From: Dactylosporangium siamense
GTDB taxonomy: Bacteria; Actinomycetota; Actinomycetes; Mycobacteriales; Micromonosporaceae
DNA: 64,000 nt
Assembly: GCF_016862795.1 (NCBI RefSeq)
Contig: NZ_BONQ01000017.1
Coordinates: forward strand, 62,001 to 126,000
Direction of reading: 5' to 3'
Below the pieces are notes generated by a model. It was not told the DNA's origin. It ran no database searches and saw nothing but the letters and a program-made list of their open reading frames with translations. Each line of letters begins with the position of its first letter. The stretch's first letter is position 1. Of this stretch, positions 1-28,506 are shown one piece after another. The translations under genes and the position numbers were made by a program.

Positions 1-53
1 GCTTGGGTGCCTGCGCTGTCGTGTGCCCGGCGCCTCGGTCGTGGTGGCCGCAT

Positions 54-193: not shown

Positions 194-2212
194 TCAGGGT
201 GCGGCGGCCGGTAACCAGGTCGCCTCCGCGACGGCGCGGGTCGCGGCGTCCGTGTAGACGGCCGTGGCCAGCCACGCCTGGGCGAACGCGCTGCCGTCGT
301 CCCCGGCGAGCCGCCCGAACGTGTCCCGGGGCCGGGTGCACGCCGCCTCCGTCAGCCGGTCGAGCAGGACCGCGCCGGTGTCGAGCCGGCCCCGCCGCAG
401 CCGGGTGGCATCCGACGGACCCCGCCCCGCCGCGAACGTGTGCACGGTCCGGCCGCCCGACACCGTCCGCTCGACCTGCGCCGCCAGCAGCCGGAGCACC
501 GGATCGCCGGTCGTGCCGATCACCGGCGGCCCGGCCTCCCCGGGGGTGGCCCCCACGGGGTGATCGCCGGGGTCGTCGTCGTCCGGCACCGCGGTGCCCT
601 CGGGCCGCGGCAGGTGGCTGCGATGGAGCCGGTCGAACGCCAGGTCCACGTGTCCGGCCTGGGCCGCCGGCAGGTTCCAGCCCGTGCCGTCCACCGGCGC
701 GACCGACAGCGGAAACACGGTGCCCGGCCGCGCCGGATCGGGGCGCGCGACCACCAGCAGCTCCAGGCCGGTCGCGCGGCCGAGAAACCGGAGATTGTCC
801 CGGTACGCCAGCGCCGGCGAATCGTCAGCGACCCGCAGTGTCAGCGGGGCACCGCTGGAGGCGGTCGCGGCGACGGCGTCGCCATTGGTCGTACCGTCGA
901 TCCGGACCGACAGGAACACCAGGTCGTCGCCGGCCCGCCGGTCCGTCACCGGCAGGGCGAGTGCCCCGAACGCCCGGTGCACCTGCTCGTCGAGCGGCAC
1001 CCTCCATAGCCCGGCCAGGGGCTCCTCGTGCCAGCCGCAGCCGCCCGCCGTGACCGCGCGCACCGACCTGCCCGCCCCCAGCTGCCGCGTCGCGGAGGCC
1101 GTCGCACCCGACACGACGAGGCCCGCCCGGGTCAGCGCCCGGTGGCTGAGCGCGGTCTCGCCGAGCGCGACGGTCGCGTTGCCGGCCTTCGCGGCCCGTC
1201 GGGCGTCGCCGGGCATCAGGTCCGCGATCATCCACAGCCCGCCGTCCCGGTCCGCGACGTAGGTGACCACGCCCGCGTAGCCGGAGTCGGCGAGCACCGC
1301 CGTCGTGCACAGGCCGTGCAGGCGGAGGCTGCCCTGCAACTCGTACGCCCGGCGGGCCGCACCCAGCAACCCCTCCGCCGGACCGGCGCCGGCCGACCGC
1401 AACCGTTGCAGGACCCCGATGAGCTCCTGCAACGCGGCCGTCAGGTCCCCGAGCCGGAAGTCCGGGTCGCCGGAACGGGCCGCCTGCAGCATCGCGGCGA
1501 CGACCCGGGCGGCGGTGGCCGGGCGGTACACCTTGCACGCCTGCCCCTCGTGCGCCGCCCGCAGCAGCGCGGTGCGCGCGACGGTCCCCGACCCGGTGAC
1601 TCCCGCGGCGAGCACGTCGACGGCGGCCCGCCACAGCTGCTCGACCGCCGCCCGCTGCTGCACCGTCAACGGCTCGGCGACGGCCTCGGCCGGGACGGCC
1701 GTGCCGCCCGTGCTGTCCGAGGCCGTGCCGGCCGTGCTGTCCGAGGCCGTGCCGCCCGTGCTGTCCGAGGCCGTGCTGGCCGTGCTGTCCGACGCGGTCG
1801 CGGCACTGGGATCCGAAGCTGTTCCGGCGGTGGTTTGCGGGGAACCGGGGAACTGCTCCGCGGCGTCGGGCAGTTCATCGGCCGGTGCGGTGTCCTGCGA
1901 CGGCCCGGTCGGGTCGCCTTCCGCGTACGCCGGGGCGAGTGCCAGCACCGCGGCCCGGTGCAGGCAGTTCGGCGCGAGCAGGCAGGTGCACGTCGCCGCG
2001 TCCGGCGAGCGGACCACCCCACCGTCGGCGACGAGTGTGACGGTGGTCGTGTCGTCGACGGCGACGGTGAACCGGCCGTCCGCCGCCGTCACCGGCAGTG
2101 CCGCGAACCGGGTCACCGCCTCGTCGACCTTCTTGCGCAGCCGGGCCGGCAACGCGTCGACGGCCGCCACCAGCACCGTGTCCGCCACCGGCGGCAGCGC
2201 GGCCCCGCTCAT
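194..2212 (-). CDS. SWIM zinc-finger protein (YehQ-like)
   Basis: A 672-aa protein and the last gene of the leftward MoxR-vWA operon. A SWIM-type zinc-binding motif CxCx5CxH is visible at C75, C77, C83 and H85, followed by a predominantly helical and beta-rich body. SWIM domains are predicted to bind nucleic acid or protein, and E. coli YehQ occupies the same position in the yeh cluster. A linker at about residues 135-185 is built of repeats of the type TASDST(A/G)GT, encoded by 21-nt DNA repeats at about 1705-1800. The ATG lies 31 bp after the stop of the vWA gene and overlaps the stop of a 12-codon mini-ORF. The enzymatic or binding role is not known. Confidence 0.8.
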   Translation of the reverse strand: MSGAALPPVADTVLVAAVDALPARLRKKVDEAVTRFAALPVTAADGRFTVAVDDTTTVTLVADGGVVRSPDAATCTCLLAPNCLHRAAVLALAPAYAEGDPTGPSQDTAPADELPDAAEQFPGSPQTTAGTASDPSAATASDSTASTASDSTGGTASDSTAGTASDSTGGTAVPAEAVAEPLTVQQRAAVEQLWRAAVDVLAAGVTGSGTVARTALLRAAHEGQACKVYRPATAARVVAAMLQAARSGDPDFRLGDLTAALQELIGVLQRLRSAGAGPAEGLLGAARRAYELQGSLRLHGLCTTAVLADSGYAGVVTYVADRDGGLWMIADLMPGDARRAAKAGNATVALGETALSHRALTRAGLVVSGATASATRQLGAGRSVRAVTAGGCGWHEEPLAGLWRVPLDEQVHRAFGALALPVTDRRAGDDLVFLSVRIDGTTNGDAVAATASSGAPLTLRVADDSPALAYRDNLRFLGRATGLELLVVARPDPARPGTVFPLSVAPVDGTGWNLPAAQAGHVDLAFDRLHRSHLPRPEGTAVPDDDDPGDHPVGATPGEAGPPVIGTTGDPVLRLLAAQVERTVSGGRTVHTFAAGRGPSDATRLRRGRLDTGAVLLDRLTEAACTRPRDTFGRLAGDDGSAFAQAWLATAVYTDAATRAVAEATWLPAAAP

Positions 2213-2247
2213 CGGGCCACCGCCCGGTCGCGCTTCGGACGGCTCAT
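2209..2247 (-). other. 12-codon relay ORF between the vWA and SWIM genes
   Basis: An ATG at 2247 overlaps the TGA of the DUF5682-vWA gene as ATGA. Twelve codons later its own TGA overlaps the ATG of the SWIM gene, again as ATGA. The peptide begins MSRPKRD and is strongly basic. It may simply let ribosomes re-initiate between the two genes, since the other junctions in this operon are also coupled overlaps. Chance is also possible. Confidence 0.35.
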
Positions 2248-5200
2248 GCGCGCACCTTCTCTCCGACCCAGCGGGCCAGCTCCAGCGGGCTCAACGCGGC
2301 GACCGGCATGCCGCACGCGACGAGCTGCGAGGCCACCGACACCGAGTACCGCGGGCGGCCCCCGTCGTCGAGGCTCGCGCAGCCCAGGACGGTCGCACCC
2401 GACTCGACCAGGGAACGAGTCTCCGCGAGCAGCCCGCCCAGGGGGTACCCCTCCTCGAAGTCGCTCACGACCACGACCAGCGTCCGCGACGGCACGGTCA
2501 CCAACGACCGCGCGTGCCGCAGCCCGGCCGCGATGTGGGTGCCGCCGCCGACCTTGACCTCCAGCAGCAGGCCCAACGGGTCGCTGACCCGGTCGGTGAG
2601 GTCGACGACCTCGGTCGAGAACGCCACGAAGTGTGTCGTCAGCGCCGGCACCCCGGCGAGGATCGCCCCGGTCAGCGCCGACCAGATGACCGACGCCTCC
2701 ATCGACCCGGACACGTCCACGACGAGGACGAGCCGCCAGTCGACGCCCCGGCGGGCCTTGGTCCGGAACACCGGCCGGTCCGGGATGACCTGGACCCGGC
2801 CGTCCTCGCCGCGGCGGGTCGTCGCCAGGTTGGCCCGCAGGGTCCGCGGCAGGTCGAGGGGGCCACCTGGCCGGCGGGTCGGCCTGGGCGTCGTGATCCC
2901 GGCGAGCGCCGGCCGCAGCCGCGCCGCCAGCTGCCGGGTGAGCTCCTCGACGATCCTCGCGACCAGCGGCCGCAGCCGCGCGACGGTCGACTCGGGCATC
3001 GCACCCGCGAGGGACAGCACCGTCTGCAGCAGCTCCACCGACGGGGTGACCGCGTCGGGGTCCAGCAGCAGCGCCGCCTCCCGCCGGCCGGACTCCGCGG
3101 CCCGGGCGAGGACCTCTTCGCGGATGCCCGGCCCGAACAGCGCGGACAGTTCCTCGGCCCACTCGCGCACACCGGGGAACGGCGCTTCCCGACCGGCCCG
3201 CCCGGCGGCGTCGGCTCTGGCGCCCTCGCCGGTGCCGGCGCCGTAGAGCTCGTCGAGGGCGGTGGCGTACCGCGCCGCTCCGGGCCCGAGCGCGTCGGAC
3301 CGCCGGCCCAGCAGTAGCCGCCACCGGTCCACTGTGGACAGTGTTCGGTCCGCACCGGGCGCTACGGGCCTGCTGGGCTCCTCCTCCGCCGTCTTCTCCT
3401 CCGCCGGCGGTATGGCGTCCGTGCCGGGTGGGGTCAGGCCGTACGCGGTGAGTGCCGCGGCGCCCGCCCGGTCGGCGAGCAGCCTGACGAGCAGCTCCTC
3501 CGGCGACACGTCGGTGATGTCGCGGGCCGACGCCGTGTCGCCGAGACGTTGCTCGACGACGGCGAGCAGCCGGTCCCGGCCGGCGGGGCTGACCGCCTGG
3601 AACCCGCCGCGCAGCGCCGGCAACCGGGACAGGAAGTCGTCGTCGGGCAGGGACTCCACCCGGTCGAGGAGCCCGTCGAGGATGTCGTCGCCGGCCTGCA
3701 GGAGCGGCTCCGCCGCGGTGAGCAGACCCCGGAGGTGGCCGAGCAGCCGGCGCCGGCCGTCGTCGGTGCGGGCGCCGTCGACCCAGGACGCCAGCCGGGT
3801 GCCGAGCGCCGCGGGCTCGCTGAGACCGAGGATCACCTGGACGGCCCCCGCCGCCGCCGACATGACGGGCGAGCCGTCCCGGGCGAGCCGGTCCACGGCA
3901 CCGGCGAGCCGGAGCCCGACCCCGGCCGCGTCGGCGCGCTGGGCGAGGGCCACGAGGGCCCGGACGTCGTCGACGGACTCGGATCCCGTCAGGCCGTCGA
4001 CCTGGCGGACGGCGGCGGACTCGAGCGACTCGAGCATCGGGGCCAGATCACCGAGCAGCCCGGCGGGCATGCCGGGGACGTGCCCGCGGTCCAGCCGGTC
4101 GACGAGGGCGAGCGCGGCCATCAGCTCGTCCAGGCTCGCGGCGGCCGGCACCCCCGCGGCGACCTCCGCGACCCGCTCGCGGGTCAGCGCGACGAGCCCG
4201 CAGCCGGCGGCGACGGCGAGACCGTCGATCAGCTGCGCCGACGTCGGGCCTTCGGCGTCCTCCTCGCCGCGCCGGCGGTGCCGCAACGTGCCCTCGGCCG
4301 CCTGGGCCAGGGTGACGCCACGGATGCCGGCGAGCTCCAGCATCGCCTCGGTGCCCGGCACCCACTGCACGGTCCACCGGGTGGTGAGCGCGTCGGCCCC
4401 GCCGGTGCCTTCGACGGCGACGCGTTCGCCGTACGGCACGCGACACACCTCGAGCTGCCGCAGCGCCACCTCCCGCCGCCGGTCCAGATCCGAGCGCAGC
4501 GAGTCGAGCCGCATGTCACGGGCCTTCTCTCCGGCGACCGGCAGGCGGAGCTCGGCGACGAGCGCCTCGACCGCGGGCCGCAGCCCGGACCGGGGCGTGC
4601 CCGGCGCGAGGACGCCGCGCTCCTCACCGACGAGCACCTGCTCCATCGCGGTCGCGACGACCCGCCCCCGGCCGAGGACCTCACCGTGGGCGACGACGCT
4701 CTGCAATGCCTCCACGATCTCGCCCCGGCCCGGCGACGGCAGGGCCCGCAGCCGGGCCAGGTCCGTCGCGAGCCGGAACGCCTCCCGCGCCTCCGCGGGC
4801 CCGGTCGGGTGGCCGGCGGCGCGAACCCGGGCGCACACGTCGACGATCGCGGTGAGCGCGGCCCGCTCGACGTCTGCGGGCCGTCCACCGGCGGCGACGA
4901 CCGCCTGCTGCCAGCGGGGGTCACGGATCCCGGCCGGGTAGCCGGACCTGGCGTCCAGCAACGGGAACGCGTACGGCACCAGCGACGTGACGACCTCGGC
5001 CGCCTTGCCGGCCCGCTGTGGCGCCGGCTCGGTGACGGGCTTGTCGACGTCGAGCAACGCCCACGCGTGGAACGAGCCGACGACCGCGGCGACCCGCCGC
5101 CCTTCGAGCGCGGCGAGGTGCCGGCGCATCCACGCCTCGCGGCGCAGGTCGAGCGGGGTGACGTCGTCGCCGGTGTCGTGCCGCATCGCCCAGCCGACGA

Positions 5201-6455
5201 GCAGCGCCGCCCGGCGGACCGCGTCCGGCACGGCGCCGGGGGCCCGGGCCTCGACGACCCGGTCCCACATGTCTTCGTCGGGACGCCCGGTCGCGGCCCG
5301 CCGCAGGGCGTCACCCAGCAGCCGCATCCCTTCCGGCGCGACCACCACAGCCCCGCCGTCGTCGCTGGACACCGGCCCGTTCGAGGTCGGCCCGTTCGAA
5401 GTCGGCCCGTTCGAGGTGGGCCCGTTCGAGGTGGGCGTGGTCGAAGCCGGCCCGTGCGAGGAGGGACCGGCAGAGGCCGGCCCGTTCGAAACGAGTCCGG
5501 CTGTGGCCGGGCTGGCAGGAGTGAGCCCGTCCGGGGAGGCGCTGGCCGGAGTCTGTGCGGATGGGGAGGGTCCGGCAGGGGCCAGTCGGTCCGAAGCGGG
5601 GCCGGTGGGAGTGAGCCCGTCCGGGGAGGCGCCGGCCGGAGTCTGTGCGGATGGGGAGGAGCCGGTAGAAGTCTGTGCGGACGGGGAAGATCCGGCAGGG
5701 GCCGGCCCGTCCGAAGCAGGGCCGGCAGGAGCCTGCACGGACGGGAAGGCGCCGGCAGGGACCGGTCCGTCCGGGGAGGGGCTTCCAGGAGCGGGCGCGG
5801 CCGAAGCTGGGCCGTCCAGAGCCGGCACCTCAGGGGCGGGCGGATCGGCCGTTTCTTCGTGCCAGGCGCGGTCGGCGAGCGGCAGGTCGCACGGGATCAC
5901 CTCGACGCCGTTGCGGGCCGCCCAGCGCACCGCGACCAGCTCCGGGGAGAAGTCCGCGAACGGGTAGAACGCCGCGGTGCCGCGTGGGCCGGCGACCCCG
6001 GCGAGGGCGACCGGCGCCGTGGTGGCCGGGTCGGCCAGCCACGGCAGCCAGTCCGCGAACTCCGCGGGGAGCTCCAGCAGGAGCACCTCCGGCCGGGCCG
6101 CGTCGAGGAGGTCGTCCATGACCGCGGACAGCGCCGGCGAGTGGTGCCGGACCCCGATGAGGTACGGCGTCGTCGACTCGGCCAGCGCCCGCAACGCCCC
6201 GTCAGGCCCCCCACCCCCGCCGGCGGGACCGACACCAGCCCCACCAGCGCGACCGACACCAGTCCCGCCCGGAGCCCCGCCAGCAGCCCCGCCAGCGGGA
6301 CCGCCAGCGGGACCGCCAGCGGGACCGCCAGCAGTCTCGCGAACAGCTCCGGTGGGACCGTTGGCCGCCCCGTCGGCAGCTCTGCCGGCGGGGCCGCCGC
6401 CGGCGCCACTGGTGGGATCGGTGGTGGGTGGGGTGGGGTCAGGACTTGAGGACAT
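2244..6455 (-). CDS. DUF5682-vWA fusion protein (YehM-YehP-like)
   Basis: A 1403-aa protein combining two genes that are separate in the E. coli yeh cluster. After a Gly/Pro/Ala-rich N-terminus, the DUF5682 region starts with YLIGVRHHSPAL at about residue 93 and runs to about 1030. The C-terminal third is a von Willebrand A domain with a MIDAS metal site DVSGS at about residues 1247-1251, preceded by VDWRLVLVV. A low-complexity insertion at about residues 213-370 (Ser/Pro/Ala/Gly repeats such as TSNGP, ASDGP and PSAQT) splits the DUF5682 domain. vWA proteins of this type work with MoxR ATPases as metal-dependent interaction partners. The start overlaps the MoxR stop by 17 nt. The biochemical function is not established. 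Confidence 0.8.
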   Translation of the reverse strand: MSSSPDPTPPTTDPTSGAGGGPAGRAADGAANGPTGAVRETAGGPAGGPAGGPAGGAAGGAPGGTGVGRAGGAGVGPAGGGGGPDGALRALAESTTPYLIGVRHHSPALSAVMDDLLDAARPEVLLLELPAEFADWLPWLADPATTAPVALAGVAGPRGTAAFYPFADFSPELVAVRWAARNGVEVIPCDLPLADRAWHEETADPPAPEVPALDGPASAAPAPGSPSPDGPVPAGAFPSVQAPAGPASDGPAPAGSSPSAQTSTGSSPSAQTPAGASPDGLTPTGPASDRLAPAGPSPSAQTPASASPDGLTPASPATAGLVSNGPASAGPSSHGPASTTPTSNGPTSNGPTSNGPTSNGPVSSDDGGAVVVAPEGMRLLGDALRRAATGRPDEDMWDRVVEARAPGAVPDAVRRAALLVGWAMRHDTGDDVTPLDLRREAWMRRHLAALEGRRVAAVVGSFHAWALLDVDKPVTEPAPQRAGKAAEVVTSLVPYAFPLLDARSGYPAGIRDPRWQQAVVAAGGRPADVERAALTAIVDVCARVRAAGHPTGPAEAREAFRLATDLARLRALPSPGRGEIVEALQSVVAHGEVLGRGRVVATAMEQVLVGEERGVLAPGTPRSGLRPAVEALVAELRLPVAGEKARDMRLDSLRSDLDRRREVALRQLEVCRVPYGERVAVEGTGGADALTTRWTVQWVPGTEAMLELAGIRGVTLAQAAEGTLRHRRRGEEDAEGPTSAQLIDGLAVAAGCGLVALTRERVAEVAAGVPAAASLDELMAALALVDRLDRGHVPGMPAGLLGDLAPMLESLESAAVRQVDGLTGSESVDDVRALVALAQRADAAGVGLRLAGAVDRLARDGSPVMSAAAGAVQVILGLSEPAALGTRLASWVDGARTDDGRRRLLGHLRGLLTAAEPLLQAGDDILDGLLDRVESLPDDDFLSRLPALRGGFQAVSPAGRDRLLAVVEQRLGDTASARDITDVSPEELLVRLLADRAGAAALTAYGLTPPGTDAIPPAEEKTAEEEPSRPVAPGADRTLSTVDRWRLLLGRRSDALGPGAARYATALDELYGAGTGEGARADAAGRAGREAPFPGVREWAEELSALFGPGIREEVLARAAESGRREAALLLDPDAVTPSVELLQTVLSLAGAMPESTVARLRPLVARIVEELTRQLAARLRPALAGITTPRPTRRPGGPLDLPRTLRANLATTRRGEDGRVQVIPDRPVFRTKARRGVDWRLVLVVDVSGSMEASVIWSALTGAILAGVPALTTHFVAFSTEVVDLTDRVSDPLGLLLEVKVGGGTHIAAGLRHARSLVTVPSRTLVVVVSDFEEGYPLGGLLAETRSLVESGATVLGCASLDDGGRPRYSVSVASQLVACGMPVAALSPLELARWVGEKVRA
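5346..5830 (-). repeat. Degenerate in-frame tandem repeats in the DUF5682 domain
   Basis: Short 15-18-nt units encoding xGPxS and PSAQTP-type peptides recur through this stretch. The cleanest block is at 5371-5435 (repeats of TSNGP). It lies between DUF5682 segments that would normally be close together, so it forms a disordered loop of roughly 155 residues. Confidence 0.7.
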
Positions 6456-7626
6456 CGCGGAGCTCCCACAGCTGGGTCCACAGCCGGGACCCCTCCTCGG
6501 CGCGGCGGCGGACGGCGCCGTCCCAGTAGCCGAGGAGCTTCGCGCCGTCGGCTGGGTCGTCCTTGCACACGACGCCCTGCAGGTGGGCGGGTAGCAGGGA
6601 CAGGACGTCGCGGTCGCCGGGGAAGTAGGCGGCGGCGAGGCCGAGGGAGGTGGCGACGGCGACCGCCTCGGCGGTGCTCATCACCGTGGAGGGGCGCTCC
6701 ACCTCCCAGCCCTCGACGGACCGTCCGGCGCGCAGGTCCCGGAAGGCGGTGACGAGGGCCTCCAGGACCGCCTCGTCGACGCCGAAGGGGGTGTGCACCC
6801 GGTCGAGGGCGGCCTTCGCCTGCCGGCCGACGAGCGCGGTCTCCGCGGCCAGGTCGGGGATCGGCCCGACGGTCTCGAAGTTGAACCGGCGCTTGAGGGC
6901 GGCGGACATCTCCGACACGCCACGGTCGCGGAGGTTGGCGGTGGCGATGAGGGTGAAGCCGGGAGCGGCGTGGATGGTGGCGCCGGGGGTGCCGGACAGC
7001 TCCGGCACCGCGATGCGGCGGTCGGACAGGATCGAGACCATCGCGTCCTGGACCTCGGGCAGGCAGCGGGTGATCTCCTCGACGCGGGCGACGGCGCCTG
7101 ACCGCATCGCGGTCAGGACCGGCGAGGGCACGAGGGCCTCCGGGCTGGGGCCGCCGGCGAGCAGGAGGGCGTAGTTCCACCCGTAGCGCAGCTGGTCCTC
7201 GGTGGTGCCGGCGGTGCCCTGCACGACCAGCTCGCTGGTCCCGCAGACCGCCGCCGACAGCAGCTCCGACAGCATCGACTTGGCGGTGCCGGGCTCGCCG
7301 ACGAGGAGCAGGCCGCGCTCGCCGGCGAGGGTGACGACGCAGCGCTCGACGAGGGCGCGGTCGCCGACGAACTTGCGGGTGATCGCCAGCTTCGCCGGCA
7401 GCGCGCCACTGCGGGCACCCTTGGGCAACGTCAGCTCGTCGCTGCCGACGATGAACGTCACCACGGCCCGCGGGGTGAGCCGCCAGCCGGGCGGCCGGGC
7501 GCCGTCGTCATAGGCGGCCAGGAATGCCAGCTCGCCCGCGTGTGCGTGCTCGGCCGGATCGACCTGCCGGGCCGGCTCGACGGCAGCGACCGCGGCCGGT
7601 CCGGTGGCAGACAACGTGGTGCTCAT
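6439..7626 (-). CDS. MoxR-family AAA+ ATPase (YehL-like)
   Basis: A 395-aa AAA+ ATPase. Walker A is GEPGTAKS (residues 110-117), the Walker B-like strand is RVEEITR (181-187) and the sensor-1 segment is ATANLRDRG (228-236). The fold and length fit the MoxR group, whose members act as chaperone-like ATPases together with vWA partners. The start was chosen at 7626 because its ATG overlaps the TGA of the 1598-aa gene (ATGA); a much longer upstream reading of this frame lies inside that gene and is a shadow. Its 3' end overlaps the start of the DUF5682-vWA gene, its presumed partner. Confidence 0.9.
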   Translation of the reverse strand: MSTTLSATGPAAVAAVEPARQVDPAEHAHAGELAFLAAYDDGARPPGWRLTPRAVVTFIVGSDELTLPKGARSGALPAKLAITRKFVGDRALVERCVVTLAGERGLLLVGEPGTAKSMLSELLSAAVCGTSELVVQGTAGTTEDQLRYGWNYALLLAGGPSPEALVPSPVLTAMRSGAVARVEEITRCLPEVQDAMVSILSDRRIAVPELSGTPGATIHAAPGFTLIATANLRDRGVSEMSAALKRRFNFETVGPIPDLAAETALVGRQAKAALDRVHTPFGVDEAVLEALVTAFRDLRAGRSVEGWEVERPSTVMSTAEAVAVATSLGLAAAYFPGDRDVLSLLPAHLQGVVCKDDPADGAKLLGYWDGAVRRRAEEGSRLWTQLWELRDVLKS

Positions 7627-10600
7627 CGACGCCCTCTCGTGGTGAGTTCTTCGAAGCGGGGGTGGTCGCCGCCGGTGGTCCTGGCCCAGGCCACCGTGAA
7701 CAGCGCCGGCGCGGGTGCGACGGGGATGACGGCGCCGAGGCCCGTCACGTTGTCGCCCTCGCGGATGAACAGTGGCAGCTTCCACAGCTCGAACGGCAGG
7801 TTGGGGCTGGACAGCGCGACCCAGCCGCCGGGCAGGAACAGGCTCCGCCCGGCCCGGGCCCGCTTGGCCTCCACGACCAGGTCGGTGGCCGCGAGCTCGG
7901 CGCGGGCCTTCTTCAGCCGGGCCGGCTTCCAGCCCGTCCAGGCCGCGACGTTGCGGTCGGTCGGGTCGGGCAGGGCGAGCAGCTGCAGGTAGAGCGTGGC
8001 CGCGTCGGCGCCGAGCCCGTGCTTCGCGGCGACCTCGGCGACCAGGTCCGGTGCGGAGCGGGACGGGTCGTGGTCCTCGTCGGCGCCCTCCGTGGAGGCC
8101 GCCGCCTCCACCCAGGCGTCGAGCTGGCCGTTGAGGATCGCGCGCATCGCGACGAGGAAGCGCGGCGAGCTGTCCAGCGCGGTGAGCAGGGCGGCCAGCC
8201 GCGGGTCGTCGGGCCCCGCCAGCAGGGCCGGGCGGACCATGACGCTGGGCCAGTGGCGGTCGTAGACGATCTTGTACACGCCGGCGTCCTGGGTCGTGCC
8301 GTCGACGGTGACCGGCAGGCCGATCTTGGCGATGAACTCGGTCAGGTTCTCCTCGTAGAGGGTGCCGATCTGGAGCTCGAGCTGCGGGTCGGCCAGCCGC
8401 TGCCGGACCAGGTCCAGCACCCGCGGCAGGCTGACGCGGGCCGGGTGTCCGGCGGGGAGGCGCCGCACCAGCCAGGGGATGCTGCGGGTGACGGCCCTGA
8501 GCAGGTCGGGGATGCCGATGCCCGGGACGGCGCCGTGCAGCCAGCGGCACGTCTCGGGGTTGGCCAGGCCGTGCAGGAACGCCGAGGCCTGCAGGCCCGA
8601 CGTGATCCCGGCCTTGCGCACCTCGACGACCAGGTCGTCGGCCAGCGGGGTCCGCACCCCGTAACGCTGCACGTGCCAGGCCGCGGCCCGCTCGACGTCC
8701 GGCCCGCCGGCCCACAGGCCCGCCGGGTCGTTGGGCAGCAGCGCCGCGCCGAGAGCGCTGCGCTCCGAGCGTTGCAGCGAGTCACGGTCGCTGAGCGCGC
8801 CCTCGAGCGCCGCCTCGGTGAGGACCTCGCCGAGGTGCCAGCCGTCCGGCCGGCGCTCCTCCCAGTCCTTGAGCGTGACCGGGTCGGCGAGCAGCACCGT
8901 CGCGTCGGCGAGGGTGATGCCGGCCGCCGCGGACAGCGCCGGGACCAGCTCCGGGCGCCACGGCAGCGGGCCCCCCTGCAGCGCCGCCACGACGAACGCG
9001 GCGAGCCGGTCGCTGTCCCAGCCGCCCGGGTCCAGCACGGTGTGCCGGGTGATGGCGTGGCCGGCGACCGCGCCGAACGCGCCGTCGGGGGCGTATTCGA
9101 TCGCCTTGACCTCACCGTCGGAGTGGTCGACGCGCAGCACGACGAGCCGCCGCTCCCCGGCGCTGATCACGTCGCCGGGTGCCGGCAGCGCGGTCAGGTC
9201 GTCGGCCTGCAGCCAGAGCCGCCGCAGCCGGCCGCCGGGCGCGAGCAGCCCCGAGCTGGCGATGATCTCGAGCAGGCCGAGCAGGTGCGCGTGGTGCTGG
9301 GCCGAGATCAGCGGCGACACGGTGCGGTAGATCACGGCGGGCAGCGCCCCGACCACGTCGAACCAGTCGGGGTCGGCGCGGCCGGCGAGCGGCGCGATCG
9401 GGCGCTCGGGCTCCCGGCCGAGCAGCGCCGCGCCGACGTGGATGAAGAGGTTGGCCCCGACGTGGCTGTAGTCGTAGCAGCCCGGGATGAGCCCGGACAG
9501 CGCCGCGTTGAGGATGCGGTCGGCGGGCAGGTGGGCGTCCGGGTCGACCTGCACGGGCTCGGCCGCCATGGCCGCGGTCGCGGTGGTCAGCTCGACCAGC
9601 CGGGCCGTGGAGCGGGCCGCCTGCTTGACGATCCCGGCGATCCCGGCGACGAGCGGCGCGGCGCTCACCTCGGGGAACGCCTCGGCGACGAGCTTGCGCG
9701 CGGTGTCGCCGTCGATCTTGGCGTCCGGGCCGACGAGGTCGACGACGGCGGCGAGCAGCCGCGCCGTCTGCTCGTCGGTGACGGCCCGCAGCGCCGCCGA
9801 ACCGGCCTCGTCGCGGACCCGCAGGTAGTGCCAGTAGCTCGCCGGGGGCAGCATGCGGGTGCCCTCGCGGAACGGGTCCTTCTTCAGGTTGGTGCGGAGC
9901 ACGGCGATCTGCGTGCCGTCCTCGGCGCACAGGACGATCTTGTTGTCCCGCCACGCGTCCTGGAACACCATGCCGTAGACGGCGTCGGCGCCGGGGAACC
10001 GGACCGCGCCGACCAGCTGCCCGTGTCCGCGGCCGCGCAGCTCGAACTTCTCCGGCATCGTGAACGTGCGGCCGTCCACGCCGGTGCCGGTCTCCGTGCC
10101 GCCCTCCGTCGTGCGGACCCGCCAGCCGACGAGGCCGTCGCGGTGCCCGAGCGGGCTGGTCGCGGCCTGCGGCGGGGCCGGCAGCAGCTGGGAGCTGCCC
10201 ACCACGAGGGTCTGCCCGTCGACGGCGTCGGCCTCGAAGAACGCCGGCAGCGACGGCCGGCCGAGCACGCCGGTGGCCACGTCGTATTCGTGCCAGCGCC
10301 ACGCCTCGTCGGCCCCGGTCTGCGCCAGGGTCCAGTAGTGCTGGCCGTCGCTGCTGACCCGGGCCCGCTCGTGGGAGGAGCGGTCGCCGGCGTGCAGCGG
10401 CCGGCCGCCGGTGGTGCGCCCGCCGCCCGGCAGGGCGACCGACGTGTGGGCGTTGACGCCGAACGCCTCGTCGGGGGTGGTGAACACGTCGTCCGCGGTG
10501 CCGCTCCAGTAACCGGCGCGCTCCTCGCCGACGTCCCAGCTGACCAGCAGCTGGCCGTCGACGTAGCGCAGCACCGTGCTCCAGTCGTAGTGCCGCTGGC

Positions 10601-12419
10601 CGGTGGGGATGCGCAGGGTGTGCTCCAGCTCCACCTCGTCGGCGCCGACGACCGCGACCAGGTCACCGGCGCGGACGACCAGCTGCGGCCACTGCCGCTG
10701 CAGGCGGACCTTCGCGTCGTAGGTGTCGTCGTCGGACTCGATGTCGGCGTCGCCGACGAGGGACTCGACCGCGGCCTCCAGGGCCGGCCAGCCGTATTCG
10801 TCGAAGACGCCGGCGCGCAGCGTGGCGGCGAGGGACGGGCCGAGGTCGTGCCCGGTGATGCGGCGCACCGCCTCCGGGTTGACCGCGAGGCCCTCCGGGC
10901 AGGCGATGAGCGCGAGCCGGCCGAGCTGGTCGTCGATGCCGGGCAGGCCCTGCTGGATCACGCTGTCGGCGAGCTGGTCGACCCACCAGTGCAGCGCCGT
11001 GCGCAGGCCCGGCACGGCGACGACCGCGGCCACGTCCTCCGGCGACACCTTGGTGCTGCGCCAGCCGGGACGCAGGTGGTCCTCGACGCTGTCCGCGATC
11101 CGCGGCAGCAGCCGCGGGTGCGCCACGACGTGGACGAGGTCGCGGCGGCCCGGCTTGTCGTCCTTGAGCCACTGCTCGACGCCGCAGCTGGCGTCGGTGG
11201 CGACCTCGCCCAGGGGGATCTCGAGCTCGAGGCACAGGTCGACGACGTCGAGGTCCAGGTAGCCCCGGGAGGGGCACAGGTCGACCGGCGCGCCGTCGTC
11301 CTTGAGCCGCTGCGCCATCCGGGTCACCAGCGCGGACTGCGCCGCCAGCCGCGTCCGGCGCCAGCCGGAGCGGTGCCGGTCGAGCCGGGTCAGCCAGCCG
11401 GCGGGCCCGTCGGGCGACTCGGCCTCGGCCGGCACGGCACCGGCCGGCCCGGTCAGCGCCGCGGTCGCGCCGGACTCGTCGAGGATCTCCAGCCAGGTCT
11501 CGTCGGGGCAGTTGCCCGGGAACATGGTCAGCAGCTGGCCGCGGACCGCGGGGTCCTGCCGGGCGACGGAGACCAGCACGGCGCGGTAGGCGGTCCAGAA
11601 CCCGCCGGGCGCCCGGACGATCGACGTGGCGGTGAGCAGGACCCGCAGCAGCGCCTCCTCCTCGTCCTGGCCGAGCTTCGCCGCCTTCGCCAGCCGGCGC
11701 AGGTCGGTGTGCATCGACGCATACGGGGGCATCCCGCCGAGGGTCCGCTCCACGCACAGCCGGCGGAACCGCTCATACGCCGTCGCCGCGTCGGCGCGGG
11801 CGGCGAGGTCGCGAGCATACGCCGACAGCGCCTTGGCGGTCAGCGCGCCGGCGAGCGCGAACTCCAGGAAGACCGTGTGCTGCCGGTCCTCGTCGATCTT
11901 CAACGCGAACGCCCGCTCGGCGTCGCGGGCCTTGCCGAACATCGACGCCGCATAGGTCGGGCTGTCCGCGGCGAGGAACGCCCGGGCGGCCTCCTCGTAG
12001 AACGTCGGCAGGAAGTGCGGCACGGAACGCGCCAGGCGCTCACCGAGCTCGACGAACCCGTCGCGGGCCGGGCCGATCCGCGACTTGGCGATCCGCACGA
12101 GCCGCTCGATGTCCTTGACGAGCGCGAGGGCGTGGTGGCCGTTGGCCGGGTCGTGCACGAGCGCCCATGCCGGGAACCCCAGCGCCTGCTGCCGCACGAC
12201 GCCGACCTCGGTGACGGCCTCGGGGGCCGCGAACCCGAGGAACTCCATGGTGAGGTCCTCGGCCGGGCCGAGGGTGCCGGGCACCAGCCGCACCACGGTG
12301 CGCTCGCCGAGGACGGGGTGCCGGTAGGCCCGGGTGGTCAGCGTGTCGATGGTGTCCTGGGCCACGCCCGCACCGCTCGGCAGCACCGCGCCGGCGTCCA
12401 GCAGAGCATCCGCGGTCAT
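7623..12419 (-). CDS. 1598-aa protein of unknown function in the MoxR-vWA operon
   Basis: A very large cytoplasmic-looking protein with no signal peptide, no transmembrane segment and no ATPase motif that I can see. The N-terminal third is rich in helix-forming stretches; the middle carries Trp/Gly-rich beta segments of the kind HYDWSTVLRYVDGQLLVSWD, suggestive of repeat or propeller-like structure. It sits between the DUF4132 gene (ATGA overlap at 12416-12419) and moxR (ATGA overlap at 7623-7626), so all are probably made in fixed proportion. By position it could correspond to the large N-terminal part of E. coli YehI/MolR, with the DUF4132 part encoded by the neighbour, but I see no WGR domain. 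This is a hypothesis. Confidence 0.7.
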   Translation of the reverse strand: MTADALLDAGAVLPSGAGVAQDTIDTLTTRAYRHPVLGERTVVRLVPGTLGPAEDLTMEFLGFAAPEAVTEVGVVRQQALGFPAWALVHDPANGHHALALVKDIERLVRIAKSRIGPARDGFVELGERLARSVPHFLPTFYEEAARAFLAADSPTYAASMFGKARDAERAFALKIDEDRQHTVFLEFALAGALTAKALSAYARDLAARADAATAYERFRRLCVERTLGGMPPYASMHTDLRRLAKAAKLGQDEEEALLRVLLTATSIVRAPGGFWTAYRAVLVSVARQDPAVRGQLLTMFPGNCPDETWLEILDESGATAALTGPAGAVPAEAESPDGPAGWLTRLDRHRSGWRRTRLAAQSALVTRMAQRLKDDGAPVDLCPSRGYLDLDVVDLCLELEIPLGEVATDASCGVEQWLKDDKPGRRDLVHVVAHPRLLPRIADSVEDHLRPGWRSTKVSPEDVAAVVAVPGLRTALHWWVDQLADSVIQQGLPGIDDQLGRLALIACPEGLAVNPEAVRRITGHDLGPSLAATLRAGVFDEYGWPALEAAVESLVGDADIESDDDTYDAKVRLQRQWPQLVVRAGDLVAVVGADEVELEHTLRIPTGQRHYDWSTVLRYVDGQLLVSWDVGEERAGYWSGTADDVFTTPDEAFGVNAHTSVALPGGGRTTGGRPLHAGDRSSHERARVSSDGQHYWTLAQTGADEAWRWHEYDVATGVLGRPSLPAFFEADAVDGQTLVVGSSQLLPAPPQAATSPLGHRDGLVGWRVRTTEGGTETGTGVDGRTFTMPEKFELRGRGHGQLVGAVRFPGADAVYGMVFQDAWRDNKIVLCAEDGTQIAVLRTNLKKDPFREGTRMLPPASYWHYLRVRDEAGSAALRAVTDEQTARLLAAVVDLVGPDAKIDGDTARKLVAEAFPEVSAAPLVAGIAGIVKQAARSTARLVELTTATAAMAAEPVQVDPDAHLPADRILNAALSGLIPGCYDYSHVGANLFIHVGAALLGREPERPIAPLAGRADPDWFDVVGALPAVIYRTVSPLISAQHHAHLLGLLEIIASSGLLAPGGRLRRLWLQADDLTALPAPGDVISAGERRLVVLRVDHSDGEVKAIEYAPDGAFGAVAGHAITRHTVLDPGGWDSDRLAAFVVAALQGGPLPWRPELVPALSAAAGITLADATVLLADPVTLKDWEERRPDGWHLGEVLTEAALEGALSDRDSLQRSERSALGAALLPNDPAGLWAGGPDVERAAAWHVQRYGVRTPLADDLVVEVRKAGITSGLQASAFLHGLANPETCRWLHGAVPGIGIPDLLRAVTRSIPWLVRRLPAGHPARVSLPRVLDLVRQRLADPQLELQIGTLYEENLTEFIAKIGLPVTVDGTTQDAGVYKIVYDRHWPSVMVRPALLAGPDDPRLAALLTALDSSPRFLVAMRAILNGQLDAWVEAAASTEGADEDHDPSRSAPDLVAEVAAKHGLGADAATLYLQLLALPDPTDRNVAAWTGWKPARLKKARAELAATDLVVEAKRARAGRSLFLPGGWVALSSPNLPFELWKLPLFIREGDNVTGLGAVIPVAPAPALFTVAWARTTGGDHPRFEELTTRGRR

Positions 12420-13300
12420 TCCTGCTCCTCCTTGCTCTCCTCGACGACCCGGCCCGCGTAGAGCGCGGCGGCCATGCGCATGCCTTCGGACCAGGCGACC
12501 GGCCCGACCTCGCCGAGCGGCACCGACGTGCCGTCCTCGCGGACGAACACCAGGTCGCCGGTCTCGGTCTCGTAGTAGGGGTCGTCGGAACCGACCCAGC
12601 TGCGGGCCTCCACGGTGCGGCCGCCCTCGAAGACGCGGCAGATCGCGGAGCCGCCCTTCACCGGATAGCCCAGCGACGAGGACCGCGCGGTCAGGTGCCG
12701 CAGCTCGGCGAACTTGCCGCCGGCATAGTCGGCGACGCGGGTCGCGGTCGGCTCGATGTCGGCGCCGCGGGTCCAGGTCTGGCGGAACAGCTGGTCGACG
12801 GACTGCTTCACGCCCAGGTCGGCGGCGAACTCCCGCAGGTCGTCGAGGTCGGCCAGCTGCACCGGGTGCGGGATCGCGACGCGCGTCGCGGGCAGGCGGA
12901 CCGTCTCACCGTCGAGGTTGACGATGCCGATCGTGCCGCCGCCGTCACCGGAGGCGTCCCGCAGGAACCCGACCTCCTCGGGGTCCCACCGGCCGTCGTC
13001 GTCGAGGACGGCGACGACCAGGTCGGTCAGCGCGGCCCGCCACACCTCGTCGGCCCAGACCCGGGCGAGGACCTCGGCGGGCACAGGCAGTGACCGGACC
13101 ATCCACCGGTCGACCTGCTCGCGCACCTGCGCCTCGTGCCGGCCCAGCCACTCCTGCAGCTGCTTGAGCCCGAACACCACCGCGTCGTCCTTCAACGCCG
13201 GCGGCACGGACTTGAGCAGCTTGCCCTTGGCATTGCGGCACGCTATGCGCCCCTCGGAAAGAGTGACCTCATAGCCACCGCCGGCGGTCAGCCACGTCAT
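12416..13300 (-). CDS. DUF4132 domain protein, first gene of the MoxR-vWA operon
   Basis: A 294-aa protein. The segment AIPHPVQLADLDDL (about residue 142) and the following KQSVDQLFRQTW resemble the characteristic HP..L...QPF.QLFR pattern of DUF4132, the C-terminal domain of E. coli MolR/YehI. Its function is unknown. The ATG at 13300 has a good upstream GGGA Shine-Dalgarno element and is the most upstream gene in the leftward operon. It is divergent from the gene at 13412, with about 110 bp between them. Its stop overlaps the next start as ATGA. Confidence 0.7.
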   Translation of the reverse strand: MTWLTAGGGYEVTLSEGRIACRNAKGKLLKSVPPALKDDAVVFGLKQLQEWLGRHEAQVREQVDRWMVRSLPVPAEVLARVWADEVWRAALTDLVVAVLDDDGRWDPEEVGFLRDASGDGGGTIGIVNLDGETVRLPATRVAIPHPVQLADLDDLREFAADLGVKQSVDQLFRQTWTRGADIEPTATRVADYAGGKFAELRHLTARSSSLGYPVKGGSAICRVFEGGRTVEARSWVGSDDPYYETETGDLVFVREDGTSVPLGEVGPVAWSEGMRMAAALYAGRVVEESKEEQE

Positions 13301-18714: not shown

Positions 18715-19128
18715 ATGGTGAAATCAGTGCGACGTCGCGGGGCTCTGCTGGTCGCCGGGGTCGTCCTCGCCGGTGCGGTCCTGTGGTCCGGCATCGATCG
18801 GGTGCTGATCCGGGTGTACAGCGGCGGCGGGTTCGCCGGAACCTACGACCTCGTCGTGATCTGGGCGTCCGGGCGGGCGCTGATCGGCGACCGGGAGGTG
18901 ATCTGGTCCCGGCTGACCCCTGGGCAGCTCCGGCGGCTGCGGGCCGCCCTCGGCGCCGCCGACTTCCCCCACTCGCCGCACCACCGGGGCGGCGTCAATT
19001 TCGGCCATCGCATCGACTACGGGCGCTGGTCGGTGATTGTCAACTCCAGCGACGTCGAAGGCGCCCCCTGGCTGGCCGACGTGCTGGAGGTGCCGCTGGA
19101 GGTCAACGCGGCGCACCGCGTCCGCTGA
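18715..19128 (+). CDS. Membrane-anchored emfourin-like protein
   Basis: A 137-aa protein with a basic N-terminus and one hydrophobic helix (about residues 9-25), so it is probably anchored with its domain outside. The exposed part begins IRVYSGGGFAGTYDLVV and continues with LTPGQLRRLRAALGAADF and DYGRWSVIVNSSDVEGA. The GGFAG start followed by an Ls..q...L..ll helix is the pattern of emfourin, the protealysin/M4-type metalloprotease inhibitor family. No protease gene is adjacent. The 3' end overlaps the convergent gene by 26 nt. The family assignment is from pattern only. Confidence 0.5.
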   Translation: MVKSVRRRGALLVAGVVLAGAVLWSGIDRVLIRVYSGGGFAGTYDLVVIWASGRALIGDREVIWSRLTPGQLRRLRAALGAADFPHSPHHRGGVNFGHRIDYGRWSVIVNSSDVEGAPWLADVLEVPLEVNAAHRVR

Positions 19129-20680
19129 GCCGGTCCAGCATCTCGGCGAGGACCGCGGGACCGGTGGCGAAGTTGAGCCGGACGAACCCGCTGGTGTCCA
19201 CCGTGGTCCCGGCGGAGAACTCGGCGCCGGGGCTGAGCTTCACCCTCGCGGTCCGCTCCAGGTCCCCGGCCGGATCCGTGCCGCCCCAAGGGATCCAGCT
19301 CAGGTAGGTCGCCTCCGGTGGCCGGTGCGGCAGCCGTGCGGCGACCGCGTCCCGGTTGGCCCGCAGCAGCGCCCGGGTCTGCTCCAGCCAGCCGGTCGAC
19401 TCCCGCCACGCGGCGGTGGTCGCGACCCGGCCCATGATGCTCGGGGTGCCGTGCAGGTCGATGGGCTGCGCGTCCAGGGACGCCCGCACCGCGGCGGGGC
19501 CGACGTGCGCGACGGCGAGACGCAGCGCGGCCAGGTTGAACGCCTTCGTCGCGGAGGTCGCGGTGACGGTCCGCGCCGCCGTCGCCGGGTCGAGGGAGGC
19601 GAACGGGGTGTGCGGGCGCGCGCCGTGCGTGAGGTCGGCGTGCACCTCGTCGGCGAGCACGACCAGGTCCAGGCGCTCGGCGACCTCGGCGAGGGCCGCC
19701 AGCTCGGCCCGGTCGAACATCCGGCCGGTCGGGTTCTGCGGGTTGACGACGACCAGCAGCCGGCACCCGGCGAGCCGCTCCGCGAGCCGGTCGGTGTCGA
19801 ACGTCCAGCGGGTGCCGTCATCCAGCATCGGCAGCGGCACGATCCGCCGGCCGGCGCGGGCGATGCTGGCCAGGAACGGCGGATACGCCGGGACGTGGAT
19901 CGCGACCCCGTCGCCGGGCGCGGTGGTGTGCTCGACCATCACCTGCAGGATCTGCAGCAGGTCGGTGAAGATCCTGGTGTGCCCCGCCGACGGGGTCCAG
20001 CCGTGCCGCACCCGCATCCAGTCCTCGAACGCGGTGACGACCGGGTCCTCGCCGCGCCAGAACGGGTAGCCGAAGTCCTCGCGGTGCACCACCTCGAGGA
20101 GGCGGTCGCGGATCGCGGGGGAGACGCCGAGGTCCATGTCGGCGACCCAGGCGCCGATCGTGCCCGGCACCGTCACGCCCCACTTGACCCCGTGCCCGGC
20201 GCGCAGCCGTGCGGTGTCGTCGCCGCGTCGCGGCGCGATGCAGTCGCGCAGGATCTCCATCTGCCCGTGGTGCTGGGCGAGCTCCTCGAAGACGTGTTGC
20301 AGCGCACCACCCTGGGTGTCGACCCGGTCGGGGCCCTGGAACCCGCGCGGGGGCGTGCCGCGCGGCGGGTCCTGCGGCGCGGCGCCGCGCACGTCGGCGG
20401 CGAACCGGGCGCGGACCTCGGCGACCCGCGCCACGAGGTCCGCGACCCGGCCCTCGGCGGTGAACTCGGCGTCCCGGTCGCGCTCGGTCGGCCGCCCCGC
20501 GACCAGGCTGCCGGCCCAGAACTCGACCACGCCGAGGCAGTGCGTCAGCAGCGCGAACGGTGAGTTCGCGCCGGGCAGCGGCCGCCGGCCGGCCCGCTCG
20601 TCGCCGAGCTCGGTGACGATGCGCACCATGCCGTCCAGCGCGCGGTCGGTGTAGTAGAGGTACTCCTCGGCGCTGATCAT
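19103..20680 (-). CDS. DinB-like domain fused to PatB/MalY-type aminotransferase
   Basis: A 525-aa two-domain protein. Residues 1-160 form a four-helix DinB/DUF664 (mycothiol-dependent maleylpyruvate isomerase-like) domain, with metal-ligand-type histidines in LLTHCLGVVEF and FEELAQHHGQM. Residues 165-525 form a fold-type I PLP enzyme close to MalY/PatB C-S lyases: MDLGVSPAIRDRL, VVNPQNPTGR, ADEVHADL, and the Schiff-base lysine in SATKAFNLA at about K379. A C-S lyase joined to a thiol-cofactor-type domain suggests processing of thiol adducts; that is inference. ATG 20680 is favoured over 20686 because GAGGGG lies six bases before it. Confidence 0.8.
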   Translation of the reverse strand: MISAEEYLYYTDRALDGMVRIVTELGDERAGRRPLPGANSPFALLTHCLGVVEFWAGSLVAGRPTERDRDAEFTAEGRVADLVARVAEVRARFAADVRGAAPQDPPRGTPPRGFQGPDRVDTQGGALQHVFEELAQHHGQMEILRDCIAPRRGDDTARLRAGHGVKWGVTVPGTIGAWVADMDLGVSPAIRDRLLEVVHREDFGYPFWRGEDPVVTAFEDWMRVRHGWTPSAGHTRIFTDLLQILQVMVEHTTAPGDGVAIHVPAYPPFLASIARAGRRIVPLPMLDDGTRWTFDTDRLAERLAGCRLLVVVNPQNPTGRMFDRAELAALAEVAERLDLVVLADEVHADLTHGARPHTPFASLDPATAARTVTATSATKAFNLAALRLAVAHVGPAAVRASLDAQPIDLHGTPSIMGRVATTAAWRESTGWLEQTRALLRANRDAVAARLPHRPPEATYLSWIPWGGTDPAGDLERTARVKLSPGAEFSAGTTVDTSGFVRLNFATGPAVLAEMLDRLSGRGAPR

Positions 20681-20692
20681 GCCCATCCCCTC

Positions 20693-22788: not shown

Positions 22789-22827
22789 GCTGGTTCGCGG
22801 CCCGAGCCGCTGCGCTGGCCGCTCACA
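22789..22827. repeat. REP-like palindromic element, family A copy 2
   Basis: Identical to 22712-22750 over 39 bp. The TGA stop of the leftward TerD gene (22823-22825) lies within its GGCCGCTCAC end, the same arrangement as at 30637-30678. Confidence 0.75.
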
Positions 22828-23395
22828 ACCGGATCCCGTAGTCGGCCGCGAGGGCGGTGACGCCGTTGGCGTAACCGTCGCCGATGACCTTGAACTTCCA
22901 TCCGCCGCTGTGCCGGTAGAGCTCGCCGAGCGCCAGGCCGGTCTCCAGGTTCAGGGCCGGCGCCAGGTTCTCCGAGCGGATCAGCTCCGCGTTGCCGTCG
23001 AGGTTGAGGACCCTGATGACGCAGGTCTTGAGCCGGCCGAGGGTGCGGCGGACCGCGGTGCCCTCGTTGACATACATGACGACGACGATCCGCGTGACCT
23101 CGGCCGGCGCGGCGGACAGGTCGACCTCGATCTGGTCGTGGTCCTCGCCGACGACCTCGCGCAGCTGCTGCACCGACAGGTCGGGCGAGGCGAGCTGGTT
23201 GAAGTACACGAAGTGGCGGTCGGAGAGGGCTTCGCCGTCACCGCGGCAGAGGATCGCGGCGACGACGATGTTGTCGGTGAGCACCCGCTCCAGGCCGGCG
23301 TCGAACTGCACGCCGAGCACGACCCCCCGCAGGTCGGGGATCTCCCGGGTGAGGGTGACGTTGGCCCCGCGCTTCATCTCCTTGGGAACACTCAT
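22823..23395 (-). CDS. Divergent TerD-family protein lacking the usual calcium motif
   Basis: A 190-aa protein with the TerD fold: KRGANVTLTREIPDLRGVVLGV at the start, SDRHFVYFNQL, then QIEVDLSAAP, RVLNLDGNAELIR and ALGELYRHSGGWKFKVIGDGYANG. The GWD...DLDAS segment that binds calcium in canonical TerD is replaced by QFDAG...LTDNIVVAAI, so metal binding may be lost or altered. Ter proteins act in tellurite, phage and stress tolerance by an unknown mechanism. The start overlaps the stop of the preceding gene as ATGA, and the stop falls in a REP-like element. Confidence 0.85.
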   Translation of the reverse strand: MSVPKEMKRGANVTLTREIPDLRGVVLGVQFDAGLERVLTDNIVVAAILCRGDGEALSDRHFVYFNQLASPDLSVQQLREVVGEDHDQIEVDLSAAPAEVTRIVVVMYVNEGTAVRRTLGRLKTCVIRVLNLDGNAELIRSENLAPALNLETGLALGELYRHSGGWKFKVIGDGYANGVTALAADYGIRL

Positions 23396-23874: not shown

Positions 23875-23881
23875 GGGTGGC

Positions 23882-25078: not shown

Positions 25079-25105
25079 CCCAGGGCCTTTCAGAGTTGGT
25101 GCGGG

Positions 25106-26581: not shown

Positions 26582-26631
26582 TAAGGTCGGCGCACCGCAA
26601 CATCCCCGATGAGCCCGAAACGGTGTGACAG

Positions 26632-27795: not shown

Positions 27796-27839
27796 TTCCA
27801 CAACCCCCGCGTCCCCGTCCCGGGAAGGTAGGCAACGCC

Positions 27840-28475: not shown

Positions 28476-28506
28476 CAGCGTTGTCGACTTTCCGGAAGGC
28501 GTACGT

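Follow-up and report, generated by a model that had tools for sequence, protein, structure and literature searches.

A five-gene MoxR–vWA operon with a DUF5682–vWA fusion in Dactylosporangium siamense as a probable relative of the E. coli yeh operon

The window analysed here, a stretch of 64,000 nucleotides from the 12.7 Mb genome of Dactylosporangium siamense, carries five closely packed genes (Table 1) that look like a distinct branch, from large soil actinobacteria, of the poorly understood gene set known from Escherichia coli. From our point of view, the operon can best be read as a MoxR–vWA machine that controls a TraB-like hydrolase together with a scaffold partner, a reading that we put forward tentatively. 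It starts from what was observed, namely gene content and conservation, the overlapping genes and their motifs, the folds predicted for the giant protein and the MoxR phylogeny.

Results

Gene content and junctions

The original prediction had postulated the order DUF4132, giant protein, MoxR, DUF5682–vWA and SWIM, with DUF5682 and vWA in a single protein and the DUF4132 part separate from the giant one, and each of these statements held: all five genes lie on the minus strand in this order, DUF5682 and VWA_CoxE are found by Pfam in one ORF, and the DUF4132 protein has an ORF of its own. All five show position-specific GC of the coding type, the MoxR gene being a segment of a longer open frame. 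A 1645-aa ORF opposite the giant gene was discarded as a shadow because its GC-rich positions mirror the minus-strand frame. As the same five genes occur in the same order in 23 of the 24 loci examined whose giant gene is full-length or split, the set is not a product of chance; the remaining locus (L122) is an orphan with a near-full-length giant gene and without the other four.

Table 1. Features of the operon; positions refer to the window, residues to the respective protein.
Feature	Position	Strand	Remarks
DUF4132 gene, first of five	12416..13300	-	294 aa; Pfam DUF4132, E 2.8e-27
Giant gene, second	7623..12419	-	1598 aa; no match with E<=1 in Pfam, NCBIfam or PADLOC
Predicted alpha-solenoid of giant protein	10740..12149	-	about aa 91-560; AlphaFold2 model, mean pLDDT 87.8
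Predicted beta-propeller of giant protein	9885..10712	-	about aa 570-845; AlphaFold2 model
C-terminal region of giant protein	7626..9707	-	aa 905-1598; model pLDDT 88.6, pTM 0.82
Winged-helix-like segment of giant protein	7836..8009	-	aa 1471-1528; model with three helices, two strands
MoxR gene, third	6439..7626	-	395 aa; Pfam AAA_5, E 1.2e-35
DUF5682–vWA fusion gene, fourth	2244..6455	-	1403 aa; Pfam DUF5682, E 2.1e-181, and VWA_CoxE, E 1.9e-60
TraB-like N-terminal part of DUF5682	5046..6170	-	motifs G101xRHH, E128, R439ExxM, G460xxH463; low-complexity insert
vWA (CoxE-like) with MIDAS DVSGSM	2265..2930	-	aa 1176-1397 of 1403; Pfam
Relay mini-ORF, 12 codons	2209..2247	-	starts on vWA stop; own stop overlaps SWIM start
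SWIM gene, last	194..2212	-	672 aa; Pfam SWIM, E 0.0036, below the SWIM cut-off

The four junctions are also as described: the DUF4132 and giant genes as well as the giant and MoxR genes share an ATGA (4-nt overlap), the MoxR and fusion genes overlap by 17 nt, and a mini-ORF relay leads to the SWIM gene. Across the loci compared, the 4-nt overlap is present at the first junction in 20/22 and at the second in 17/22 cases, and stop-start continuity between the vWA and SWIM genes was seen in 75/75 readable loci. In 13 loci these two genes do not touch and are bridged by mini-ORFs of 8–79 codons, 12 of which form a relay of the window type, with the start on the vWA stop and the stop on the SWIM start (at a chance of 1/3 each, at least 12 in-frame cases among 13 have a probability of 1.7e-5; with the loci reduced to five lineages, four of them in frame, P = 0.045). 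The relay mini-ORFs form a case of their own, in which selection for translational coupling can be tested. The case for one co-transcribed operon rests on the same-strand gene overlaps, from which the proposed fixed stoichiometry of one complex does not follow. A promoter/terminator scan revealed no promoter-like site, and one terminator-like site, no more than expected by chance.

Relation to the E. coli yeh operon

The postulated parallel to E. coli K-12 could be confirmed, as yehI-(yehK)-yehL-yehM-yehP-yehQ encode DUF4132, MoxR, DUF5682, vWA and SWIM proteins in the same order. The window operon differs in that DUF5682 and vWA are fused, that DUF4132 forms a short separate protein without a full-length YehI-like form, that the giant protein is additional, and that the SWIM protein is only weakly YehQ-like (profile probability 15%, E 0.0018); its ligands C75, C77, C83 and H85 (CxC...CxH) are invariant in 12/12 rows. 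The 294-aa protein aligns with columns 836-1106 of the 1115 of YehI (profile comparison, probability 94%, E 1.2e-7) and, judged by sequence, has its counterpart in YehI only in the DUF4132 region at the C-terminus.

A profile comparison of the giant protein with YehI/MolR had been suggested as a check. No relation of the giant protein to YehI could be detected, although the parallel in gene order stood, and the idea that this protein represents the detached YehI N-terminus was rejected (probability 0.3%). No ORF piece in the E. coli yehF-osmF stretch matched it better than E 0.6, and the two matches among PDB sequences were not significant (best E 0.12). As to whether it is related to any MoxR–vWA partner, kinship with YehI gives no support, but its position between DUF4132 and MoxR in 23/24 loci does, as does one natural fusion (L124) that joins the giant protein to the DUF4132 protein's N-terminal portion. 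L157 is a DUF4132–giant pair. On the other side, L122 and several shorter relatives of the giant protein occur without the other operon genes.

For the predicted propeller, Foldseek ranked known propellers highest, BtuG2 among them, with a best E of 1.3e-3 and no match at <=1e-3. The model of the C-terminal region matched no PDB structure (best E 1.0), and its best viral match had an E of 0.36. Within this region, aa 1471-1528 may adopt a winged-helix-like fold according to the model, and the segment belongs to the stretch of this protein that is conserved most strongly, with many columns invariant in 25/25 rows.

The MoxR ATPase

YehL is listed as one of seven named MoxR subfamilies in PMC3893208. 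The YehL-type core postulated for the window MoxR was corroborated by shared motifs and by sister clades: GEPGTAKS, TANxRD and ALKRRF are common to window MoxR and YehL, the first and last being present in 22/22 fused-type MoxR proteins, and the fused-type clade (22 rows, 99/99) and the YehL clade (8 rows, 100/99) are sister groups in a midpoint-rooted tree in which E. coli YehL forms a long branch and the two other MoxR rows very long ones. In place of the usual DE, the Walker B motif has VEE in the window MoxR and EE in each of 12 rows compared. A match to the NCBIfam MadB ATPase (E 2.1e-8) was not adopted because its 33.7 bits lie far under the cut-off of 475, and the bpMoxR profile, with 21.7 bits, did not reach its cut-off of 27.

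The fusion protein

DUF5682 and vWA form one ORF in 23/23 operons, and the MIDAS sequence DVSGSM is present in 22/22 fused proteins. The vWA ends near the chain end (aa 1397 of 1403) and is followed by neither a C-terminal effector domain nor a propeller.

TraB/Tiki/EreA proteins share a motif set of two GxxH motifs with a conserved E and R. DUF5682 carries this set in the spaced order GxxH, E, R, GxxH, invariant in 31/31 rows, whereas the weak score, a long insert, a large further C-terminal region and the vWA fusion set DUF5682 apart from this family. The comparison set consisted of 7 TraB rows and of those EreA rows (18/20) that a motif filter retained. Against the TraB family profile, the N-terminal part gave a weak but colinear match (E 8.7e-4, probability 23%), whose score of 33.2 exceeds all controls (40 block shuffles, <=26.6; 7 further profiles representing 5 protein families, <=21.6; reversed sequences, 15-17); in two DUF5682 subsets the probability was 12% and 10%. 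The 9-row YehM-type subset matched EreA (E 5.2e-4) and the 22-row window-type subset did not (E 0.16); EreA and TraB themselves, an accepted kin pair, reached a probability of only 0.2 in the same comparison. A full-length DUF5682 profile did not match EreA/YbaP in a set containing a wrong-frame row (L128) and doubtful EreA rows, and a Pfam scan of the fusion protein returned no TraB family. Taken by its sequence, the N-terminal part of DUF5682 probably represents a metal-dependent hydrolase of a divergent TraB/Tiki type.

Discussion

If this assignment is correct, the locus, chromosomal and sometimes on a megaplasmid, could encode a machine that remodels proteins and is built around a MoxR AAA+ ATPase of the YehL branch. 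This ATPase would assemble into a ring that uses ATP to act on the vWA domain, and ATP turnover might switch or load the DUF5682 hydrolase directly, since both domains share one chain. The giant solenoid-propeller protein and DUF4132 may act as a unit that binds a client or signal and presents it, and the SWIM protein could serve as a zinc-dependent adaptor; a trigger, if there is any, we infer likewise. The gene order in 23/24 loci, the overlaps, the invariant motifs, the TraB score above its controls, the giant-protein models, the L124 fusion and the L157 pair argue for this machine, whereas the weak TraB match, the VEE/EE Walker B, the weak YehQ link and the orphan L122 argue against it.

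A different and rather unlikely possibility is that MoxR and vWA serve as a maturation chaperone that inserts metal into, or remodels, one cellular enzyme, with the giant protein or DUF4132 as client or platform and a non-catalytic DUF5682. The CoxD/CoxE, NorQ/NorD and CbbQ/CbbO pairs of MoxR and vWA proteins are models for this, and the CoxE-like vWA as well as the matches of the window MoxR to midasin and NorQ among solved proteins are consistent with it, as is the description of MoxR proteins as chaperone-like maturation factors in PMC3893208. However, an unsystematic inspection of gene lists revealed no enzyme gene in the flanks that returns from genus to genus (near relatives share some), and the conservation of the putative active-site residues of DUF5682 in 31/31 rows would be unexpected.

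One could also imagine an anti-phage or programmed-death system by analogy with the MoxR–vWA ternary systems of Kaur et al. (2020), comprising a giant sensor, MoxR and an effector-carrying vWA protein. As far as described in PMC7159879, the VMAP ternary conflict systems have the gene order third component, MoxR, vWA, occur in actinobacteria and with two or more related systems in a genome, all as here, and beta-propeller MoxR–vWA systems combine a GxxxTAKS P-loop with a helical-repeat/propeller partner, which the giant protein recalls. By the same source, the propeller of the latter systems is C-terminal to the vWA, unlike in the window, and VMAP-type MoxR proteins keep an Arg where the rows compared here carry the N-terminal signature PP[GA]WxL (31/32 rows) and Arg is not conserved. 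Pfam includes VMAP models. The giant protein, the would-be third component, matched none of them at E<=1, nor did Pfam find a VMAP, iSTAND or FtsH domain in any of the five proteins, and PADLOC gave no system match, only weak ones of the fusion protein to Cas8a (E 0.034) and of MoxR to a model for type II restriction enzymes (E 0.0044).

The distribution bears on the same question. Giant-protein matches were found in 17 of 61 genomes, the window's own included, and the fused-type vWA in 67 of 250 genomes of the family. Among 61 relatives, the system is present in 16/27 genomes of >=7 Mb and 0/34 smaller ones (Fisher 6e-8; 3e-6 leaving out six of the seven genomes of the window genus, the only correction for kinship), and one of the 23 operons resides on a Streptomyces megaplasmid beside an IS110 transposase, while one genome holds four DUF5682 loci. 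Such patterns would suit a conflict system, but genome size and relatedness confound the distribution, and the 250-genome search yielded six positives below 7 Mb (G269, G318, G384, G455, G469 and the incomplete G291). With the domain searches and a vWA lacking a C-terminal effector, the role in biological conflict raised by the original prediction was not confirmed for this version, and we regard it as unlikely.

Returning to the hydrolase machine, one could speculate, although we consider it doubtful, that DUF5682 is a TraB/Tiki-type metallohydrolase held and fired by MoxR–vWA, which would make ATP-gated hydrolase machines of yeh-type operons in general, from E. coli to Actinobacteria; the version in the window would then be rich in sensors, its giant solenoid-propeller-winged-helix protein reading nucleic acid or an invader signal and its last gene being kept in translational coupling by mini-ORF relays. 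In the openly licensed literature, we found no reported activity for DUF5682, DUF4132 or yeh-operon proteins, and no paper on the function of the YehL operon by titles and abstract openings. A conserved variant in which the vWA cofactor is fused to a hydrolase candidate provides testable handles on this function, namely putative active-site residues that can be named, a direct MoxR–vWA–DUF5682 chain and, as giant partner, a protein whose confident model matches no PDB structure. Window-type and E. coli yeh-type operons occur together in at least five genomes (G000, G001, G003, G016 and G050).

Results

The original prediction had described five coupled genes; re-reading the open reading frames and domains in the window placed them on the minus strand and bore out both its coordinates and its junctions (Table). 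In the source genome (G000; 12.7 Mb, 296 contigs), where the window spans 62001-126000 of contig C17, the operon is flanked at both ends by genes on the opposite strand, as called by a simple GC-based gene caller. No Pfam family matches the gene adjoining the start of the operon at E ≤ 0.001. About 9.5 kb upstream lies a tellurite/stress (Ter) cluster that encodes TelA, a TerC/DUF475 protein and four or more TerD proteins.

Table. Features of the window, in window coordinates
Feature	Length	Position	Strand	Remark
Operon		13300 down to 194	minus	five consecutive genes
DUF4132 protein	294 aa		minus	first gene of operon
Giant protein	1598 aa		minus	second gene of operon
MoxR	395 aa		minus	third gene of operon
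DUF5682-vWA	1403 aa		minus	fourth gene of operon
SWIM protein	672 aa		minus	fifth, last gene of operon
Gene next to operon	356 aa	13448-14518		divergent
Two-domain protein		19103-20686
Ter cluster		22823-29085
Multidomain protein	879 aa	55164-57803

Of the 24 loci examined in which the giant gene is full-length or split, the window's among them, 23 have the five-gene operon. Matches to the giant protein occur in 17 of 61 genomes (relatives search, own genome included). The nearest named relative found is Dactylosporangium aurantiacum, whose giant protein is 83% identical. In all 15 of the other genomes where the giant gene is either full-length or split, the five genes keep the same order; at locus L043 the contig ends within the SWIM gene, which is still visible as an open frame. 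The seventeenth genome, G012, has partial relatives only, and a second locus in G000 likewise carries only a partial one. A search of 148 genomes from the class gave matches in 11, two of them already in the 61-relative set; six genomes of one further genus hold the whole operon (L116-L121), and one further match is marginal. Relatives outside any operon are L122 (1555 aa, near full length, internal stop flagged), the sole exception among the 24 loci, and L123 (717 aa). In five plasmid records the match extends over 80% or more of the giant protein, and the one inspected, a linear megaplasmid of Streptomyces atratus, carries all five genes near an IS110 transposase, annotated as DUF4132, "DNA-binding protein", AAA ATPase, DUF5682 and hypothetical protein. 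The fused-type vWA protein occurs in 67 of 250 family genomes, one per genome (E ≤ 1e-60), and in 66 of these the frame is open over 1112 aa or more.

Stop-start overlaps of 4 nt join DUF4132 to the giant gene in 20 of 22 operons, the giant gene to MoxR in 17, and vWA to SWIM in 17 (1 nt in one more); at the MoxR-fusion junction such an overlap is present in four, and a possible start giving a 17-nt overlap in ten others. A wider survey of the vWA-SWIM junction (76 loci, each from a separate genome or record; one is masked by N) gave 61 direct 4-nt overlaps (13 with a TTG start), one of 1 nt and 13 gapped junctions. Twelve of the latter contain a mini-ORF of 10-79 codons that begins on the vWA stop and whose own stop shares 4 nt with the SWIM start (at L206, with the second of the possible starts rather than the first), and the thirteenth has an 8-codon ORF with an 8-nt overlap. 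The relay peptides vary in sequence while the frame is retained; since one genus supplies seven of the 13 junctions and the window's own genus three, the relay events are not independent.

AlphaFold2 models of the giant protein (aa 1-911, pLDDT 87.8; aa 905-1598, pLDDT 88.6) show a predicted alpha-solenoid, a beta-propeller and then a C-terminal region. Foldseek returned propellers and helical repeats for aa 1-911, marginally (best E 1.3e-3), and nothing convincing for aa 905-1598 (best E 1.0; viral best 0.36). Conservation peaks near aa 1450-1545, a stretch modelled as three helices and two strands, in which we infer a winged helix. One genome splits the gene around aa 904-912, near where the domains are predicted to meet; this split may be a sequencing frameshift.

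That the DUF4132 and giant proteins would form one functional unit is argued for by two arrangements. In L124 (1416 aa) part of the DUF4132 protein (positions 3-106 of its 289-position profile; Pfam's own DUF4132 model gives no match) is fused to a giant protein lacking the propeller, and a Streptomyces nigrescens plasmid carries the pair (giant 1227 aa) with the other three genes absent within about 7 kb either side.

In DUF5682, G101, R103, H104, H105, P107, E128, R439, E440, M443, G460 and H463 are invariant throughout an alignment of 31 proteins, which represent three operon types (22 fused, 8 yehM, 1 C71; the C83 protein was left out), a pattern that we take to suggest the Tiki/TraB/EreA superfamily. 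The N-terminal profile matched seven TraB-family proteins colinearly (probability 23%, E 8.7e-4, score 33.2); controls scored at most 26.6 (40 block shuffles), at most 21.6 (seven other profiles from five protein families) and 15-17 (reversed profiles). By subset, the probability was 12% for the YehM type and 10% for the window type, and only the YehM type matched EreA (E 5.2e-4; window type 0.16). An accepted EreA-TraB pair fails in the same comparison. On these profiles a TraB-like N-terminal part is suggested, not proven.

Discussion

The window's MoxR and YehL, the MoxR of the E. coli operon (yehI, yehK, yehL, yehM, yehP, yehQ), have in common GEPGTAKS, TANxRD, ALKRRF and an N-terminal PPGWxL signature, and their clades are sisters in the MoxR tree. 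In the same tree, rows of another family (f33) split between two places among those of the window's family, a placement suggestive of transfer or an old duplication. In profile comparison the match of the window's DUF4132 protein to YehI is confined to YehI's C-terminal part (probability 94%); the giant protein, for which a profile search against YehI had been proposed, gave no match (0.3%). Operons of the yehI-L-M-P-Q type proper occur in relatives and elsewhere in G000 (contig C149), so both types coexist in one genome, which also holds two further MoxR-DUF5682 loci (C71, C83).

As to these other loci, L009 (C71) reads DUF5691-MoxR-DUF5682-vWA, L010 (C149) carries two YehI-like genes in a classical yeh operon, and L011 (C83) has a different order, vWA-MoxR-DUF5682. 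DUF4132 is expanded (13 matches in G000 and 20 in G012, some genes matching twice), and several matches, L083, L093 and L094 among them, fall in long YehI-like proteins whose genes have no MoxR gene close by. A gut scaffold of 45% GC (L158, MT835988.1), unverified and carrying the label bacteriophage, encodes a MoxR-DUF5682-vWA trio and is perhaps bacterial contamination.

The openly licensed papers searched gave no mention of DUF5682; DUF4132 brought up three, among them PMC8533742. Hits for the yeh gene names included PMC3893208, and many others seem to reflect the surname Yehl. The window operon follows the gene order of the MoxR-vWA ternary conflict systems in PMC7159879, with a third component first, then MoxR, then vWA, and its solenoid-propeller partner also resembles those systems. 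Neither the VMAP nor the vWA-propeller features that define them were found, however, in the window operon. We therefore favour a putative remodelling machine controlling a TraB-like hydrolase.

Elsewhere in the window, one protein combines DinB/mycothiol-transferase-like and class I/II aminotransferase domains. The 879-aa protein, with matches to 2'-5' RNA ligase, MJ1316 and endonuclease/phosphatase and a sub-threshold match to poly(A) polymerase, is perhaps an RNA-end processing fusion.
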